Below, piece by piece: positions 6,805 to 17,010 of a stretch of DNA of 64,000 bases. This DNA comes from Novosphingobium sp. 9U. Lineage in GTDB: Bacteria > Pseudomonadota > Alphaproteobacteria > Sphingomonadales > Sphingomonadaceae. The DNA lies in NCBI RefSeq assembly GCF_902506425.1, contig NZ_LR732504.1:124001-188000 (forward strand). Direction: 5' to 3'. The notes beneath the pieces are model-generated. The model saw nothing but the letters and a program-made list of their open reading frames with translations. It had not been told where the DNA came from and did not search any database. The translations under genes and the position numbers were made by a program. Each line of letters begins with the position of its first letter. Position 1 is the first letter of the stretch.

Positions 6805-7698
6805 TCACCGCCCGGCCTCCTCCCGCAGCCGCTTGTCGAGAAGCGCCTCGTGCTTGTCCGCATAAGCCTTGCATGCCGCGGGATCGCGGAACGGGTTCGG
6901 CCTGGCTCCTGCACGCAAGGCCGCAAGCTTGCGGTCGCCGCCCGATTGGTCCGGGTGCGCGCTGAGCAGGATGTCGCATGGCAGCTGGCGAAAGCGCGCG
7001 AATGTGCGGCGGAACATCGAGACGCGTTCGGGATGATCGGAGAACCGCCAGCTGTCCGAGGAGATCGGATTGAGGCTGGAGGCGAAGAGCACGGTGGCGC
7101 AGGCCTTCCCCTCGCACGCTTGCCACTGCCAGCTCGTGCTACCTTCCGTATGGCCGGGTGTGGCGACGGCGGTCACGGTGACGTTCCCCAGACGGATCCG
7201 CTCACCATCGCGAACCGCGCGCACCGTCTTCACCGCCGGGAATGTCGCGAGGTCCGCCGCTTGCGGATCGGCGGCGTCCCGGCCGCCGTTGCGCAGCACC
7301 GGCGCGGCCTGAGCGCCCGCCAGAACCGTCGCACCGCTGTCGCGTGCCAGTGCGGCCAGGCCGCCGGCATGATCCCAGTGCGGCTCGGTCGAGAGGATCA
7401 GCTTCACGTCGCGGATCGACAGGCCCACCTTGCGCAGGTTGGCTTCGATCTGTGGCACGGCCTGCGGGACGGCGCCATCGATCAGGATCAGCCCTGCATC
7501 GGTGCGAATTACCGCCACCGTGAGACCACCGAAACCGACGAGGTAGGTGTTGCCGAATAAGCGCGTCGGCACTTGCGGAGCGAGCCAGCGCTTTGCGTAT
7601 TCGGGCGAGATCGGCCGCAGCAGGAGATCGTCCGCAGGTGCGGTGGCCGCCAGGCTCATCGCAGCCACACTGATGGCTGTCGCCCATTTCATGATCAT
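6805..7698 (-). CDS. Subclass B3 metallo-beta-lactamase, Glu116 (B3-E) variant
   Basis: 297 aa from ATG 7698, with GGGAG seven bases upstream; the first 21 residues of the longer frame are not part of the signal peptide. A signal peptide (MIMKWATAISVAAMSLAATAPA) exports it. It has the B3 layout: EPHWDH at residues 105-110, GHTEGS with H183, FASSLNP, and SAHPDQSG with H248. The first residue of the usual HxHxDH motif is Glu105 (codon 7384-7386), so zinc site 1 would be Glu105/His107/His183 and site 2 Asp109/His110/His248. B3 enzymes with Glu at BBL position 116 are known, for example SIE-1 of Sphingobium indicum. They hydrolyse beta-lactams. The gene is divergent from an AmpR-type regulator. 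Confidence 0.87.
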   Translation of the reverse strand: MIMKWATAISVAAMSLAATAPADDLLLRPISPEYAKRWLAPQVPTRLFGNTYLVGFGGLTVAVIRTDAGLILIDGAVPQAVPQIEANLRKVGLSIRDVKLILSTEPHWDHAGGLAALARDSGATVLAGAQAAPVLRNGGRDAADPQAADLATFPAVKTVRAVRDGERIRLGNVTVTAVATPGHTEGSTSWQWQACEGKACATVLFASSLNPISSDSWRFSDHPERVSMFRRTFARFRQLPCDILLSAHPDQSGGDRKLAALRAGARPNPFRDPAACKAYADKHEALLDKRLREEAGR

Positions 7699-7803
7699 GC
7701 TCCGGCTCCCAAGACTTTGATGCCGGCACCTTGGCCACGCCTGTCGACCAGCACAAAGCATTCATTCTCGACTGAGCCATCAGCTGATCTTATGGATTGA
7801 GAG
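7699..7803. promoter_or_regulatory. bla/ampR divergent intergenic region with a 10-bp palindrome
   Basis: The 105 bases between the two divergent starts must hold both promoters. A perfect palindrome ATCAGCTGAT lies at 7779-7788, 16 bases before the ampR start, where an autoregulatory LysR-type site would be expected. Several T-N11-A pairs can be found, but they are too degenerate to place the AmpR site for sure. The operator assignment is an inference from gene order. Confidence 0.5.
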
Positions 7804-8679
7804 ATGGACCGTGCGCAGATCCCGCTCAATGCCCTGCGCGCGTTCGAAGCTGCCGCGCGGCACCTGTCGTTCACTCGCGCCGGCGCCGAGCTGTGCGTCA
7901 GCCAGGGCGCTGTAAGCCAGCAGGTCGCAGCGCTCGAGGCAAGGCTGCGAACAGCGCTGTTCCGTCGCCTTCCGCGTGGCCTGGCGCTCACCGACGAGGG
8001 CCGGGCCTTGTTCCCGGTGGTCGCCGATGCGCTCGACCGGGTGGGCGGCCTGCTTGCCCGGATCGAAGCCGGCCAGCCACGTGAGGTGCTGTCGCTCGGC
8101 GTCGTGGGCACATTCGCCAGCGGGTGGCTGCTGACGCGGCTTCGGGACTTCGAGCGAGCCTGCCCGCAGGTGGACCTGCGCCTTTCCACCAACAACAACC
8201 GCGTCGACATCGCCGGCGAGGGCCTGGACATGGCCATCCGCTTCGGCGGGGGCGCCTGGCACGGAACCCATGCGGAGCCGATCCTCAATGCACCGCTCAC
8301 CCCACTGTGCACGCCCGAGATCGCGACACGCCTCTCCGATCCCACGCTGCTGGGCCGAGAGCTGCTGCTGCGCTCATACCGAAGCGAGGAGTGGCCGGCA
8401 TGGTTCAGGGCCGCCAACCTGCCCTGTCCGCCCCTGCGGGGCCCGGTGTTCGACAGCTCGGTGCTGATGGTCGACGCGGCACGCCGTGGCCTCGGGATCG
8501 CGCTGGCGCCCGCCGCGATGTTCGCCGCCGACTTGCGAGCGGGGACCCTGGTACATCCGTTCGCCACCACGATAGAGGCCGGGAGCTACTGGCTCACCCG
8601 CCTGCAATCGCGGGCGGATACGCAGGCTATGGCGCTTTTCCGCACCTGGCTGCTGAACGCGGCGGCAACAGGCGCCTGA
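7804..8679 (+). CDS. ampR: LysR-family regulator, AmpR orthologue
   Basis: 291 aa, typical LysR length. The N-terminal helix-turn-helix (PLNALRAFEAAARHLSFTRA, then VSQGAVSQQV) and the effector domain both follow enterobacterial AmpR closely: EGLDMAIRFGGGAWH near residue 140, PLCTPEIA, LLRSYR-EEW, PVFDSSV and GSYWLTRLQSR near the C terminus. AmpR binds between itself and a divergent bla gene, represses or activates with UDP-muramyl pentapeptide or anhydro-muropeptides, and so links beta-lactamase expression to cell-wall damage. Here the divergent partner is a B3 metallo-enzyme rather than class A or C. GAGAG lies just before the ATG. Confidence 0.88.
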   Translation: MDRAQIPLNALRAFEAAARHLSFTRAGAELCVSQGAVSQQVAALEARLRTALFRRLPRGLALTDEGRALFPVVADALDRVGGLLARIEAGQPREVLSLGVVGTFASGWLLTRLRDFERACPQVDLRLSTNNNRVDIAGEGLDMAIRFGGGAWHGTHAEPILNAPLTPLCTPEIATRLSDPTLLGRELLLRSYRSEEWPAWFRAANLPCPPLRGPVFDSSVLMVDAARRGLGIALAPAAMFAADLRAGTLVHPFATTIEAGSYWLTRLQSRADTQAMALFRTWLLNAAATGA

Positions 8680-12686: not shown

Positions 12687-12914
12687 TCTCCCGGCCTGCG
12701 AAGGAGCGGCGCTTTTTGCCGTTGCCTCAAAGGCCTAGTGCATGGAACCGAACCTGACGGTAAGGGCGCCACCAATCGGCGGGATGGGGATGCTTTGCGC
12801 CCCGTTCCGCCATGGTGACGATTGCCGCATCCCGTATTTTCCGGCAGTCCGTAAAGTTCGAACCGCAAGCGCCGACATGCGCTTGTGGGTTCCTGCAGGG
12901 AAGATCCGAGGGCG

Positions 12915-14411
12915 ATGGCTGACCAGACGACGATATCGACAGGCAACGATGGCCTGGACATCATCCTCAAAGGTGGACTCACGCCCAATCGGCTCTACTT
13001 GCTCGAAGGTGCGCCCGGCTCGGGCAAGACCACTCTGGCGCTCCAGTTCCTGCGCGAAGGCGTGGCACGCGGAGAGCGCGTGCTCTACATCACGTTATCC
13101 GAAACCCGCGAGGAACTCCGCGCCGTCGCGGCCTCGCACGACTGGGATCTCGAAGGCTTCGACGTCTTCGAGTTCAACTCGGCGGACGATGTCTTCGGCG
13201 GCGGGCGCGAACAATCGATCATCCATCCCTGGGAAATGGAACTGGGCGAGACCGTAAGGCTGATCCAGGACGAGGTCGAGCGCGTGCGCCCCGCCCGCGT
13301 CGTGTTCGACAGCCTCTCGGAGATGCGGCTGCTGGCCCAAGACCCGCTACGGTATCGCCGCCAGGTGCTCGCACTCAAGCAGTTCTTCGCCGGACGTGCT
13401 TCCACGGTGCTGCTGGTCGACGATATGACCGGATCGATCGAGGCGCGCGACGCGCATCTGCATAGCCTGTGTCACGGCGTGATCACGCTGGAGCGGCTGA
13501 CGCTCGACTTCGGCGCGGCGCGGCGGCGCATGCAAGTGCAGAAGCTGCGCGGGATCGACTTTACCGCCGGGTACCACGACTTCGTCATCCGCAAGGGTGG
13601 CCTCGATATTTTCCCGCGCCTGATCGCCGCCGATCACCACCAGGACTTCAAGGAAGAGCCGATGTCGAGCGGCATCGGCGAGCTCGATGATCTGCTGAAC
13701 GGCGGTCCCTTGCGCGGCACCAACGTGCTGGTCACCGGGCCCGCGGGTTCCGGCAAGACAACGATCGCGCTGCAGTATGTCCAATCTGCTTGCGAGCGGG
13801 GTGAGCCGGTCTCGATCTTCCAGTTCGACGAGCGCGTCGGCACCTTGATGAGCCGGGCCGCCGCCTTTAACCTCGACATCGCCACGCACCTGGACAGCGG
13901 CTGCATGGTCCTGCAGCAGATTGACCCGGCCGAGATCTCGCCTGGCGAATTCGCGACCCGCGTGCGCCGAGAGGTAGAGCTGCGCGGGGCACGCGTGATC
14001 GTGATCGACAGCCTCAACGGCTACATGGCCGCCATGCCGCAGGAACAGCAACTGCTGCTGCAGATGCACGAGCTGCTCTCCTATCTCAGCCAGCGCGGCG
14101 TGGTGACCTTCCTGATCAACCCGCAGCAAGGGCTGGTCGGCACCATGGCGACCAACCTCAACATTTCCTATATCGCGGACGCCGTGATCCTGCTGCGCTA
14201 CTTCGAGGCGGGGGGCCGCGTGCGCAAGGCGATCTCGATCATTAAGAACCGGGGCGGCATGCACGAGGATTCGATCCGCGAGTTCCGCATCGATGGCAAT
14301 GGCCTGCGGATCGGTGCTCCCCTGGTGGAGTTCAGAGGCATTCTGACCGGCACGCCCGAATTCACCGGCGAAGGCTCCCCGCTGATGGAAGACCGGCTGA
14401 GTGCCAACTGA
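12915..14411 (+). CDS. KaiC-like double-domain RecA-fold ATPase/kinase
   Basis: 498 aa from ATG 12915. Two KaiC/RecA domains are seen: CI (about 5-235) with Walker A GAPGSGKTT at residues 32-40, and CII (about 245-480) with GPAGSGKTT. Acidic residues follow in both (SETREE in CI, FDER in CII). In CII the segment matching the cyanobacterial Ser431-Thr432 autophosphorylation pair reads N-I-S-Y (S418, Y419), so the Ser is kept and the Thr is Tyr. There is no kaiA or kaiB nearby. The next gene, a hybrid histidine kinase, overlaps this one by 11 bases, so they are almost certainly expressed together. I infer a signalling role rather than a true clock. Confidence 0.86.
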   Translation: MADQTTISTGNDGLDIILKGGLTPNRLYLLEGAPGSGKTTLALQFLREGVARGERVLYITLSETREELRAVAASHDWDLEGFDVFEFNSADDVFGGGREQSIIHPWEMELGETVRLIQDEVERVRPARVVFDSLSEMRLLAQDPLRYRRQVLALKQFFAGRASTVLLVDDMTGSIEARDAHLHSLCHGVITLERLTLDFGAARRRMQVQKLRGIDFTAGYHDFVIRKGGLDIFPRLIAADHHQDFKEEPMSSGIGELDDLLNGGPLRGTNVLVTGPAGSGKTTIALQYVQSACERGEPVSIFQFDERVGTLMSRAAAFNLDIATHLDSGCMVLQQIDPAEISPGEFATRVRREVELRGARVIVIDSLNGYMAAMPQEQQLLLQMHELLSYLSQRGVVTFLINPQQGLVGTMATNLNISYIADAVILLRYFEAGGRVRKAISIIKNRGGMHEDSIREFRIDGNGLRIGAPLVEFRGILTGTPEFTGEGSPLMEDRLSAN

Positions 14412-17010
14412 GGCATCGAACGAGGGCCGGCGGGTTGTTGTCTGCGCGCCGTTCGGCCGTGATGCGGAGAGCGTTGCCGCGCTGCTGACGCGTGAGGGTT
14501 ACGAGGCGGCGCCTTGCGCTGATCTCGCCCAAGTGGCGGCGCACATAGACGATGAAGTCGGCGCCGTGCTGGTGACCGAGGAGGCGCTGGGCACGGGGAT
14601 AGAACTGCTGCGCGACGCCTTGTCCCGGCAGCCGCCGTGGTCGGATTTGCCGTTCGTGCTCCTCAAAGCACAGCGCACCGGCCGGTCGGCGCCGAACACC
14701 GCGCTTGAAGGACTGGCCGGGCTGGTCAACAACACCGTCATCCTGGAGCGGCCGCTCGGCATAGCCTCGCTCGTCAGCGCCGTTGCGTCTGCGCTTCATG
14801 CCCGGCGCAAGCAGTTCGAGATGCGGGATCGCATCGCCGAGCTCGCCAGTTCGGAAAGCCGCCTGCGTCTTGCAACCGAAGCCGCTAATATCGGAACTTG
14901 GGACTACGATCCCATTGGCGACGTGCTGCGTTGGGACTTGCGCTGCAAGGCGCTGTTCGGCCTGCCGCCGGATGCGGAGATCACATTCGAACACAGCTTC
15001 ATCGCCGGCCTGCACCCTGAAGACCGCGCGCGCACGGTTGACGCGGTCAGCCGCGCACTCGATCCACACGGCAAGGTCGACTACGACATCGAATACCGCA
15101 CTATAGGGCTGTCCGACGGCGTGGAGCGCTGGGTCGCGGCAAAAGGTGGCGCGGTGTTCGATCAAGAGCGCGCCACGCGTTTCGTCGGCACCATCATGGA
15201 CATCTCCGAACGCAAGCGCGCCGAGGCAGCGCTTGCTGCCTCCGAAGCCGCGCTGCGAGAAGAAAGCCATGCGCTGGAGATCCTCAACCGTACCGGCAGC
15301 AAGGTAGCGGCCGAGCTCGACCTCGACAGCCTTGTACAGGCGGTGGTCGATGCCGGCCGCGAGCTTACGGGCGCGGAGGCTGGTGCTTTCTTCTACAACA
15401 AGGTGGATGACGACGGCGAAAGCTACCTGCTGTTCAGCCTGTCGGGGCCGCCACACTCTGCCTTCGAGAACTACCCCATGCCGCGCAACACCGCGGTTTT
15501 CGGCCCGACATTCGCGGGTGAGGGCGTGGTGCGCTCCGACGACATCCGGCAGGATCCTCGCTACGGTCAGAACGACACCTACCACGGCATGCCCGCGGGC
15601 CACATCCCGGTGGTCAGCTACCTCGCCGTGCCGGTGGCTTCACGCTCGGGCGAAGTGATCGGCGGCTTGTTCTTCGGCCACAGCCAACCGGCTCAGTTCA
15701 GCGACCGCTCCGAGCGGCTTGCCGTCGGCCTTGCTGCCCAGGCTGCGATCTCGATCGAGAACGCGCGGCTGATCCAGGCGGCCCAGCGCCTGAACCAGAC
15801 GCTCGAGCAGAAAGTCGCCGAGCGCACCCACGACCTCGAAGCCGAGATGGCGAGCCGCGCCCGCGCGGAGGCAGCGCTGCGTCAGAGCCAGAAAATGGAG
15901 GCCGTGGGTCAGCTGACGGGCGGCATCGCGCACGATTTCAACAACATGCTGACCGGGGTCATCGGCGGCCTCGACATCGTCAAGCGCCGCATCGCCTCTG
16001 GCCGGACGCAGGACCTCGATCGCTTCATGGACGCGGCCTCCGCCTCGGCGCACCGCGCGGCAGGGCTGACCGCGCGCCTGCTCGCCTTTTCGCGCCGGCA
16101 GTCGCTCGATGCGCGGCCGCTCGACGTCAATGCGCTGACCGCTTCGCTTGACGACCTGCTGCGCCGCACGATCAACGAGAACATCGCACTCAAGATCGTG
16201 CCCGGGCGGGACGCGCCGCACGCCATTGCCGATGCCAATCAGCTCGAGAACGCGATCCTGAACCTCGCGATCAACGCGCGCGATGCCATGCCTGATGGCG
16301 GCCAGTTGACCGTGGAGGTGCAGAGCGTCGAGCTGGACGAGGCCTATGCCGCCACGGAGCCCGATGTGGCGCCCGGCCGCTATGTCGTGATCGCCGTCTC
16401 GGACACCGGCGTTGGTATGCCGGCCGACGTGATCGAGAAAGTTTTCGAGCCGTTCTTCACCACCAAACCGATCGGCCAGGGAACGGGCCTGGGCCTCTCC
16501 ATGGTTTACGGCTTCGCGCGCCAATCTGGTGGCCAGGTGCGCATCCACAGCCGCCCGGGCGAAGGCACGTCGGTGAAGATCTACCTGCCCGCGTGCGAGG
16601 GTGACGCCACTAGCCAGAGCGACAGCCCCGGCGCCGTGCAGGAAGGCCATGGTCAGACCGTGCTGGTGGTCGAGGACGATCCGTCGGTACGCCTGCTGGT
16701 ACGCGAGGTGCTGGAAGAGCTCGGCTATGCCCCGCTCGAAGCCGGCGACGCCGTCGAAGCGATCCCCATCCTGCGCTCGGCCCAATCGATCGACTTGCTG
16801 GTGTCCGATGTCGGGCTGCCTGGCATGAACGGGCGCCAGCTGGCCGAAGTCGCGCGCGAGCATCGGCCCGACCTGCCGATCCTGTTCGTCACCGGCTATG
16901 CCGAGAACGCCGCGATCCGTGCCGGCTTCCTGGGCACCAACATGGCCATGATCACCAAGCCCTTCGCCATCGAGGCGCTGGCGGCGAAGATCGGCGAGAT
17001 GGTGAATTAG
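14401..17010 (+). CDS. Hybrid histidine kinase: pseudo-receiver-PAS-GAF-HisKA-HATPase-REC
   Basis: 869 aa, GTG start overlapping the KaiC-like gene. Order of domains: a receiver-like fold at 10-125 in which the usual phospho-Asp strand reads VLVTEEAL, with no Asp (pseudo-receiver); PAS at about 150-275 ([14 protein letters not shown]); GAF at about 300-455; a coiled linker ([15 protein letters not shown]); HisKA with phospho-acceptor H511 in [11 protein letters not shown]; HATPase ([26 protein letters not shown]); and a C-terminal receiver with Asp803 in [13 protein letters not shown]. No transmembrane segment is visible, so it is cytoplasmic. The pseudo-receiver plus GAF plus kinase layout recalls cyanobacterial CikA, in a different order. 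Confidence 0.88.

Follow-up and report, generated by a model that had tools for sequence, protein, structure and literature searches.

In the genome of Novosphingobium sp. 9U, we analyzed a stretch of 64,000 nucleotides (contig NZ_LR732504.1, positions 124,001 to 188,000; hereafter the window), in which a gene for a predicted metallo-beta-lactamase of subclass B3 lies back to back with a gene for an AmpR-type regulator. The enzyme is of the B3-E variety, with glutamate in the place of the first zinc-binding histidine. The pair is very probably an AmpR-controlled, muropeptide-responsive, inducible B3-E metallo-beta-lactamase module. From a conserved operator, the co-inheritance of the parts, and the presence of an AmpR in trans where there is none in cis, regulation of the lactamase gene (bla) by AmpR can be strongly inferred, in support of the AmpR control proposed by an earlier sequence-only reading of the window; we further infer carbapenem hydrolysis and cell wall sensing by the pair. 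What is new to us is an AmpR-bla system with a B3-E metallo-enzyme as the cis partner, and the conservation of that pairing; AmpR control of a B3 enzyme is in itself already known.

The enzyme gene lies on the minus strand (positions 6805 to 7698) and encodes 297 amino acids, with a signal peptide recognized by eye. Its reading frame runs from 7761 to the stop at 6805, and as the longer, 318-residue frame would enter the operator described below, ATG 7698, where the protein begins with MIMK and which is preceded by a ribosome binding site-like GGGAG/GGAG, was taken as the likely start. The protein matches the NCBIfam model bla_subclass_B3 (NF033105) with 295 bits (cut-off, 240 bits), and it is the single B3 gene above the cut-off in its genome. 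The closest chain in the Protein Data Bank (PDB) is 7LUU (289.5 bits), named SIE-1 in a figure legend of a 2023 review (PMC10318434). The ligand block reads EPHWDH (residues 105 to 110), and the zinc ligands E105, H107, D109, H110, H183, and H248 correspond to standard positions 116, 118, 120, 121, 196, and 263, the numbers of the last two being set by the motifs PGHT and SAHPD. All six positions are invariant in an alignment of 16 sequences. With Glu at position 116 and H118, D120, H121, H196, and H263 in place, the predicted enzyme is a subclass B3-E metallo-beta-lactamase, and the ligand alignment, the NF033105 score, and the 7LUU match bear out the earlier description of a B3 enzyme with EPHWDH and Glu105 as the first ligand.

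The metallo-beta-lactamase fold acts on many substrates, and the NCBIfam model HARLDQ_not_B3 also matches the protein, with 154 bits (cut-off, 350 bits), as might be expected if the protein were a non-lactamase hydrolase that is merely B3-like. We give this very little credence, given the score to the B3 equivalog, the full set of ligands, the AmpR partner, and the fact that the nearest solved relative is a working beta-lactamase. SIE-1, from Sphingobium indicum, is reported to be active on all major beta-lactam classes with raised selectivity for cephalosporins, and it is given as the only characterized B3-E member (PMC10318434). The window enzyme shares its EHH/DHH ligand set but is well diverged from it and has EPHWDH instead of the EPHYDH of 7LUU.

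The sequence-only reading had called the enzyme a rare Glu variant. The Glu is real, but it is not an isolated rarity: among at least 2,107 enzyme homologues at an E value of ≤1e-30, the best 120 were read, and 120 of 120 carry Glu (75 with EPHYDH, 35 with EPHFDH, and 10 with EPHWDH). In a tree of 59 enzymes, the Glu-type rows are separated from ten His- or Gln-type rows with support of 99/92. On this comparison, Glu116 is a clade marker and the rule among the closest relatives, not a local oddity. Unlike Glu, the Gln substitution seems to have evolved on several occasions (PMC10318434).

The divergent gene (plus strand, positions 7804 to 8679) encodes a LysR-type regulator of 291 amino acids. 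Its best NCBIfam match is PenR (384.7 bits, below the cut-off of 625), followed by GcvA (265.1 bits, below the cut-off of 288), and in the PDB it matches the AmpR chain 5MMH best (264 bits), so that AmpR/PenR comes first among both the LysR families and the structures. The blocks FDSSV and GSYWLTRLQSR, earlier pointed out as AmpR features, are both present. It is the only close AmpR of its genome, the next full-length match being 39% identical. The positions that we take to form the AmpR effector pocket, T103, S221 (S219 in the protein), and Y264 (Y262), are all kept, as are G102 and D135; T103 is replaced by Ser in 4 of the 36 cis AmpRs of B3-E loci. G102 and D135 are structural positions of AmpR, and DNA binding by Pseudomonas AmpR depends critically on S38 and K42 (PMC8401664). 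The window regulator keeps S38 and has Ala at position 42. As this position is unlike canonical AmpR, we call the regulator AmpR-type and regard it as a distinct sublineage, not as a textbook AmpR. In a tree of 53 AmpRs, the 37 that are linked to B3-E enzymes form one 38-row group together with the AmpR of a genome whose enzyme locus is cut by a contig end (L106), with support of 81/91, which falls below the starred level.

The two gene starts are 105 bp apart (positions 7699 to 7803), the coordinates agreeing with the earlier reading. Gap alignment and a position matrix predict a conserved AmpR operator of 46 bp in this control region (plus strand, positions 7751 to 7796), with the consensus nnACAAAGCATCATTTCTCGACAnAGCCATGAGnnnnnTTnATGnn (64.7 bits), which was built from 27 training sites, namely 25 cis loci, the window, and one contig-end locus (L036). 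Leave-one-out scores over the training sites ranged from 35.0 to 72.7 bits, and 11 cis loci outside the training set scored 39.9 to 65.0 bits; 40 single-letter shuffles of each non-training region reached a maximum of -1.3. The window operator scored 38.5 bits by a matrix from whose training set the window and its nearest relative had been left out, while the best other nonoverlapping site in the 64-kb window scored -11.9, and a site of -10.6 overlaps the operator on the other strand. The proximal operator element (plus strand, positions 7777 to 7795), a near-palindrome of the form CCAT...ATGG and by eye a LysR-type box, adjoins the ampR start. Within the distal repeat, TTTGTG on the bla strand (minus strand, positions 7752 to 7757) is the putative -35 element of bla. 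Downstream on that strand is a GGCAT-like box; its C is conserved in 40 of 44 Glu-type rows, and so is its A. The distance of the box from the distal repeat, which is fixed in most relatives, comes close to one promoter spacer, so that the bla -35 element is probably within the distal repeat.

Clean covariation of residue 42 with letters of the operator was considered and dropped: by eye it is not clean, and an AmpR with Lys (L104) has a CGAC-type operator. In four loci of a Sphingopyxis group (L037, L039, L041, and L051), a repeat-like sequence, seen by eye, lies between ampR and the operator; the operator remains closer to bla. A wider AmpR regulon was rejected, as one pattern run over the Novosphingobium sp. 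9U genome gave the window site and a single site with three mismatches.

We then looked at how the pair recurs. A survey of loci in named genomes gave at least 594 stretches, of which 215 were confirmed and the best 80 kept; 48 of these 80 are Glu-type, a proportion which says nothing on how common Glu is, because the survey patterns favor the Glu motif and only the best loci were kept. A divergent adjacent AmpR is found in 36 of the 48 Glu-type loci, and the operator is present at 36 of 36. These cis AmpRs are 61 to 83% identical to that of the window and lie 89 to 312 bp from the enzyme match, one of them (L011) being a contig-end fragment. They come from Novosphingobium, Sphingobium, Sphingomonas, Sphingopyxis, Sphingosinicella, Altererythrobacter, Blastomonas, Caulobacter, and a few records whose names go no lower than the family. 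The nearest named relative of the pair among the best 80 loci is in Novosphingobium chloroacetimidivorans (L007; enzyme 81% and AmpR 83% identical), and a close relative of SIE-1 in Sphingobium fuliginis (L050, 484.9 bits to 7LUU) has a divergent AmpR and the operator, as in the window. Protein distances of enzymes and AmpRs are closely correlated over 36 pairs, namely 34 cis loci, the window, and a plasmid (L090), with L011 left out for its cut AmpR and L058 for a short enzyme match (Mantel r of 0.908, with 0 of 9,999 permutations as high); such a test cannot tell co-inheritance apart from shared descent.

The other 12 Glu-type loci have no AmpR next to them. Seven keep the operator (L008, L010, L012, L015, L016, L017, and L021; 21.8 to 38.5 bits), and in 7 of 7 genomes an AmpR, 60 to 67% identical, is encoded elsewhere, the trans layout known for the L1 enzyme of Stenotrophomonas maltophilia. 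Four of these loci (L008, L010, L012, and L016) are close relatives, so the seven represent fewer independent events. A strict regular expression misses the site in all seven and the matrix finds it, by which the simple rule that no adjacent AmpR means no operator was rejected. At L036, which a contig end truncates, the operator is present and the AmpR of the genome is on another contig. The remaining four (L024, a draft metagenome assembly, L026, L052, and L054) show no operator (-24.5 to -35.6), and their genomes have no AmpR at an E value of ≤1e-30. Taken together, this pattern and the recurrence of the pair rule out chance adjacency of AmpR and bla, and comparison indicates that Sphingomonadales and some Caulobacter co-inherit regulator, enzyme, and operator.

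By NCBIfam, the AmpRs that stand in trans have a class A gene (L104) or class D genes (L107 and L109) as neighbors, and by eye one has a class A-like gene (L105); no lactamase was seen in the stretches around three others (L108, L110, and L111). An operator match is found at L104 (42.0 bits), L109 (22.1 bits), and L107 (18.2 bits), and no site scores above -10 at the other six of the nine AmpR loci L104 to L112 (L105, L106, L108, L110, L111, and L112). By eye, L108, L110, and L111 apparently have only the proximal half of the operator before the start of their own AmpR gene, as expected for autoregulation. At L107 and L109, the AmpR-like regulators are divergent from class D beta-lactamases above the NF000270 cut-off, with a weaker form of the operator.

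A sample of 196 genomes from the order was examined with cutoffs of E≤1e-40 for B3 and E≤1e-70 for AmpR. It appears to share at least one genome with the survey of named genomes (G167 and L031), so that the two are not wholly independent. A B3 match was found in 79 of the 196 genomes (80 places), and AmpR was found in 10 of 196; by coordinates, 7 of these 10 AmpRs are adjacent to and divergent from a B3 gene. Of the 38 B3 places that were read, the window included, 8 are Glu-type and 30 are His-type. AmpR and operator are present at 7 of the 8 Glu-type loci, the six besides the window scoring 39.3 to 69.0 bits; the eighth (G148) has neither, and its genome has no AmpR at the cutoff. None of the 30 His-type loci has an AmpR in the stretch read or an operator, the best score being -4.7 (L142), far from the gene start, which rejects AmpR as a companion of B3 enzymes in general. 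None of the ten AmpRs lies beside the remaining 42 B3 places. The three that are not next to a B3 gene are beside genes that look like class A by eye in G135 (operator, 23.3) and G044 (-9.7; one TGA counted in the AmpR match) or beside a gene that is not lactamase-like in G169 (57% identical; -7.5). At position 42, Ser is found in one cis AmpR of this sample and Asn in one AmpR that adjoins a class A-like gene.

Outside the Glu-type enzymes, the pairing was also seen in Luteimonas, where two His-type B3 genes (L057 and L062) have a divergent cis AmpR, 59% identical, and a more diverged operator (17.0 and 16.5 bits). Their enzymes score highest on the L1, PAM, and POM models. The ligand set of L1 is of the His type. 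The Luteimonas loci have the same relation of AmpR and B3 enzyme as S. maltophilia, but in cis. Another His-type locus (L064) has a weak operator match (3.2 bits) and an AmpR elsewhere, beside a class A gene.

Enzyme matches were further found on eight plasmid records, four of them Glu-type and from sphingomonads. AmpR and operator are present on three of these four (L090, L129, and L130; 54.8 to 59.1 bits). On pTomMM15b (L090), a plasmid typed conjugative, a single gene separates the bla of the pair from trwC; L129 and L130 are typed non-mobilizable. The fourth, pTHN (L131), typed conjugative, has a Glu-type enzyme with no operator or AmpR in the stretch read.

The window resembles the known ampR-ampC (class C) and PenR/NmcR-type (class A) systems in that regulator and lactamase genes diverge across a gap of about 100 bp, and differs from them in that those are serine enzymes whose AmpRs, among those compared, have K or R at position 42. 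Operator-like sites just before ampR were found in a class A system of Azospirillum (L089, 6.6 bits) and in the class C system of DHA (L101, -6.6; shuffled maxima of -22.4 and -21.1, respectively); being placed as in the window, they fit a common AmpR site. Low scores are not decisive alone, since that of the His-type locus L142 tops the score of the DHA site; the argument for the DHA site is its position immediately in front of ampR. The gap between IMI-2 and ImiR gave no operator match (-31.9). On the Agrobacterium fabrum plasmid pAt2788a (L102, positions 1 to 2724), an AmpR-like regulator, 58% identical, is divergent from a gene for penicillin-binding protein 1A (operator, -14.7).

The sequence-only reading stated that AmpR normally drives class A or C serine enzymes, which is incomplete. 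In S. maltophilia, AmpR controls L1, with induction via AmpG and AmpD homologues (PMC4557615), and L1 is of subclass B3 (PMC4463611). The likeness to the window is AmpR control of a B3 enzyme, predicted in the window from sequence; the difference is that the S. maltophilia AmpR has the class A gene L2 as its neighbor and regulates L1 in addition, whereas the window AmpR directly adjoins the B3-E gene. LysR-type regulators divergent from other metallo-beta-lactamase genes are found in VarR-VarG of Vibrio cholerae, with a gap of 111 bp and an arrangement compared with AmpR-AmpC (PMC5595328), and in CARR-CAR-2 of Phytobacter; in the available portions of these reports, neither VarR nor CARR is presented as AmpR itself. 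A literature search on AmpR with B3-E enzymes, with the terms subclass B3, Sphingomonas, and Sphingobium, found none in the partial texts that it covered, the original SIE-1 description not being among them, and the main text of the B3 review mentions neither AmpR nor LysR (PMC10318434). Public annotation already labels such genes as LysR or ampR and as subclass B3.

The mechanism that we propose for the module is as follows. AmpR would bind the operator and keep bla low while it is bound to UDP-N-acetylmuramic acid (UDP-MurNAc)-pentapeptide. Upon beta-lactam damage, anhydro-muropeptides would rise, to be imported by AmpG and trimmed by NagZ, and the trimmed muropeptides would switch AmpR to activation of the bla promoter, with its -35 element probably inside the distal repeat of the operator. 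The two-zinc enzyme, once exported and with Glu replacing the first Zn1 histidine, would then hydrolyze cephalosporins and other beta-lactams as SIE-1 does. The ampG, nagZ, and ampD recycling genes are found in the same genome: a gene matching TIGR00901, which we take to be the AmpG family (358.8 bits; cut-off, 350), a NagZ-type hexosaminidase (221.6 bits; cut-off, 207), and an AmpD-like amidase (113.4 bits, under the cut-off of 143). About 7 kb past the right end of the window is a class A-like gene (G000:C36:194977-195756; 197.9 bits; cut-off, 200), at which no operator was matched (-15.3). The class D model NF000270 had no match in the genome, and class C had none above its cut-off.

Several observations weigh against this mechanism. 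The window has a weak -10-like box for bla. Of the 36 B3-E cis AmpRs, 35, including that of the window, have Ala at position 42 and one has Thr, while 14 of 14 other AmpRs grouped for comparison have K or R there, so that the position separates this lineage from the AmpRs that accompany enzymes of classes A, C, and D. CARR, whose gene is divergent from that of the B3 enzyme CAR-2, is a LysR-type repressor on which the beta-lactams tested had no effect (PMC12434095). The last two points favor an alternative in which the window regulator controls bla as a plain repressor, or via a ligand other than muropeptides, and there is no beta-lactam induction. We regard this alternative as unlikely. CARR is reported to be poorly conserved with AmpR (PMC12434095), whereas the window regulator is AmpR-like over the effector domain with its pocket kept. 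Operator-like sites stand at the same place in class A and class C systems, and in genomes that keep the operator but have no cis AmpR, the AmpRs found that could serve it all adjoin class A or D enzymes or stand alone. Two further points would fit a bla gene that is constitutive from its own promoter, with an AmpR neighbor that is incidental or regulates only itself. Five Glu-type loci (the four of the survey and G148) are without operator and without AmpR. Caulobacter crescentus has a B3-class enzyme, BlaA. This metallo-enzyme is constitutive (PMC13046382), so that a metallo-enzyme of this kind does not have to be inducible in this class. We hold constitutive expression to be very unlikely for the window, because the operator is retained at the bla promoter and is gone where the genome has no AmpR, and because the parts are co-inherited. 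An inducible module under AmpR control is the reading that we retain.

Farther along in the window, at positions 12885 to 14411, is a gene for a two-domain protein that is KaiC-like by eye, followed by a gene for an apparent PAS/GAF histidine kinase with a receiver domain (positions 14401 to 17010).

SIE-1-type enzymes have been described by structure and kinetics. AmpR-type regulators are found next to B3 enzymes of both the Glu and the His type and next to enzymes of classes A, C, and D, with operator sites that are related. A broader proposal, on which we are evenly divided, is that B3-E enzymes and a dedicated AmpR sublineage, with position 42 changed from Lys/Arg to Ala and an operator consensus of its own, were joined as one alphaproteobacterial module that spread through Sphingomonadales, Caulobacter, and onto a plasmid typed conjugative, and that class A/D-linked or lone AmpRs serve the same operator where the cis regulator is missing. 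SIE-1-type enzymes would, on this proposal, be a metallo-beta-lactamase lineage with its own switch for cell wall damage in cis. The pair offers a testable couple of regulator and operator with an altered recognition-helix residue, and it is already on a plasmid typed conjugative (L090). As the same pair and the same control site recur in dozens of relatives, this enzyme family is probably induced by the drugs that it destroys. The conserved AmpR operator predicts inducibility, so that laboratory tests on uninduced cells could underestimate the resistance of environmental sphingomonads and of some caulobacters.

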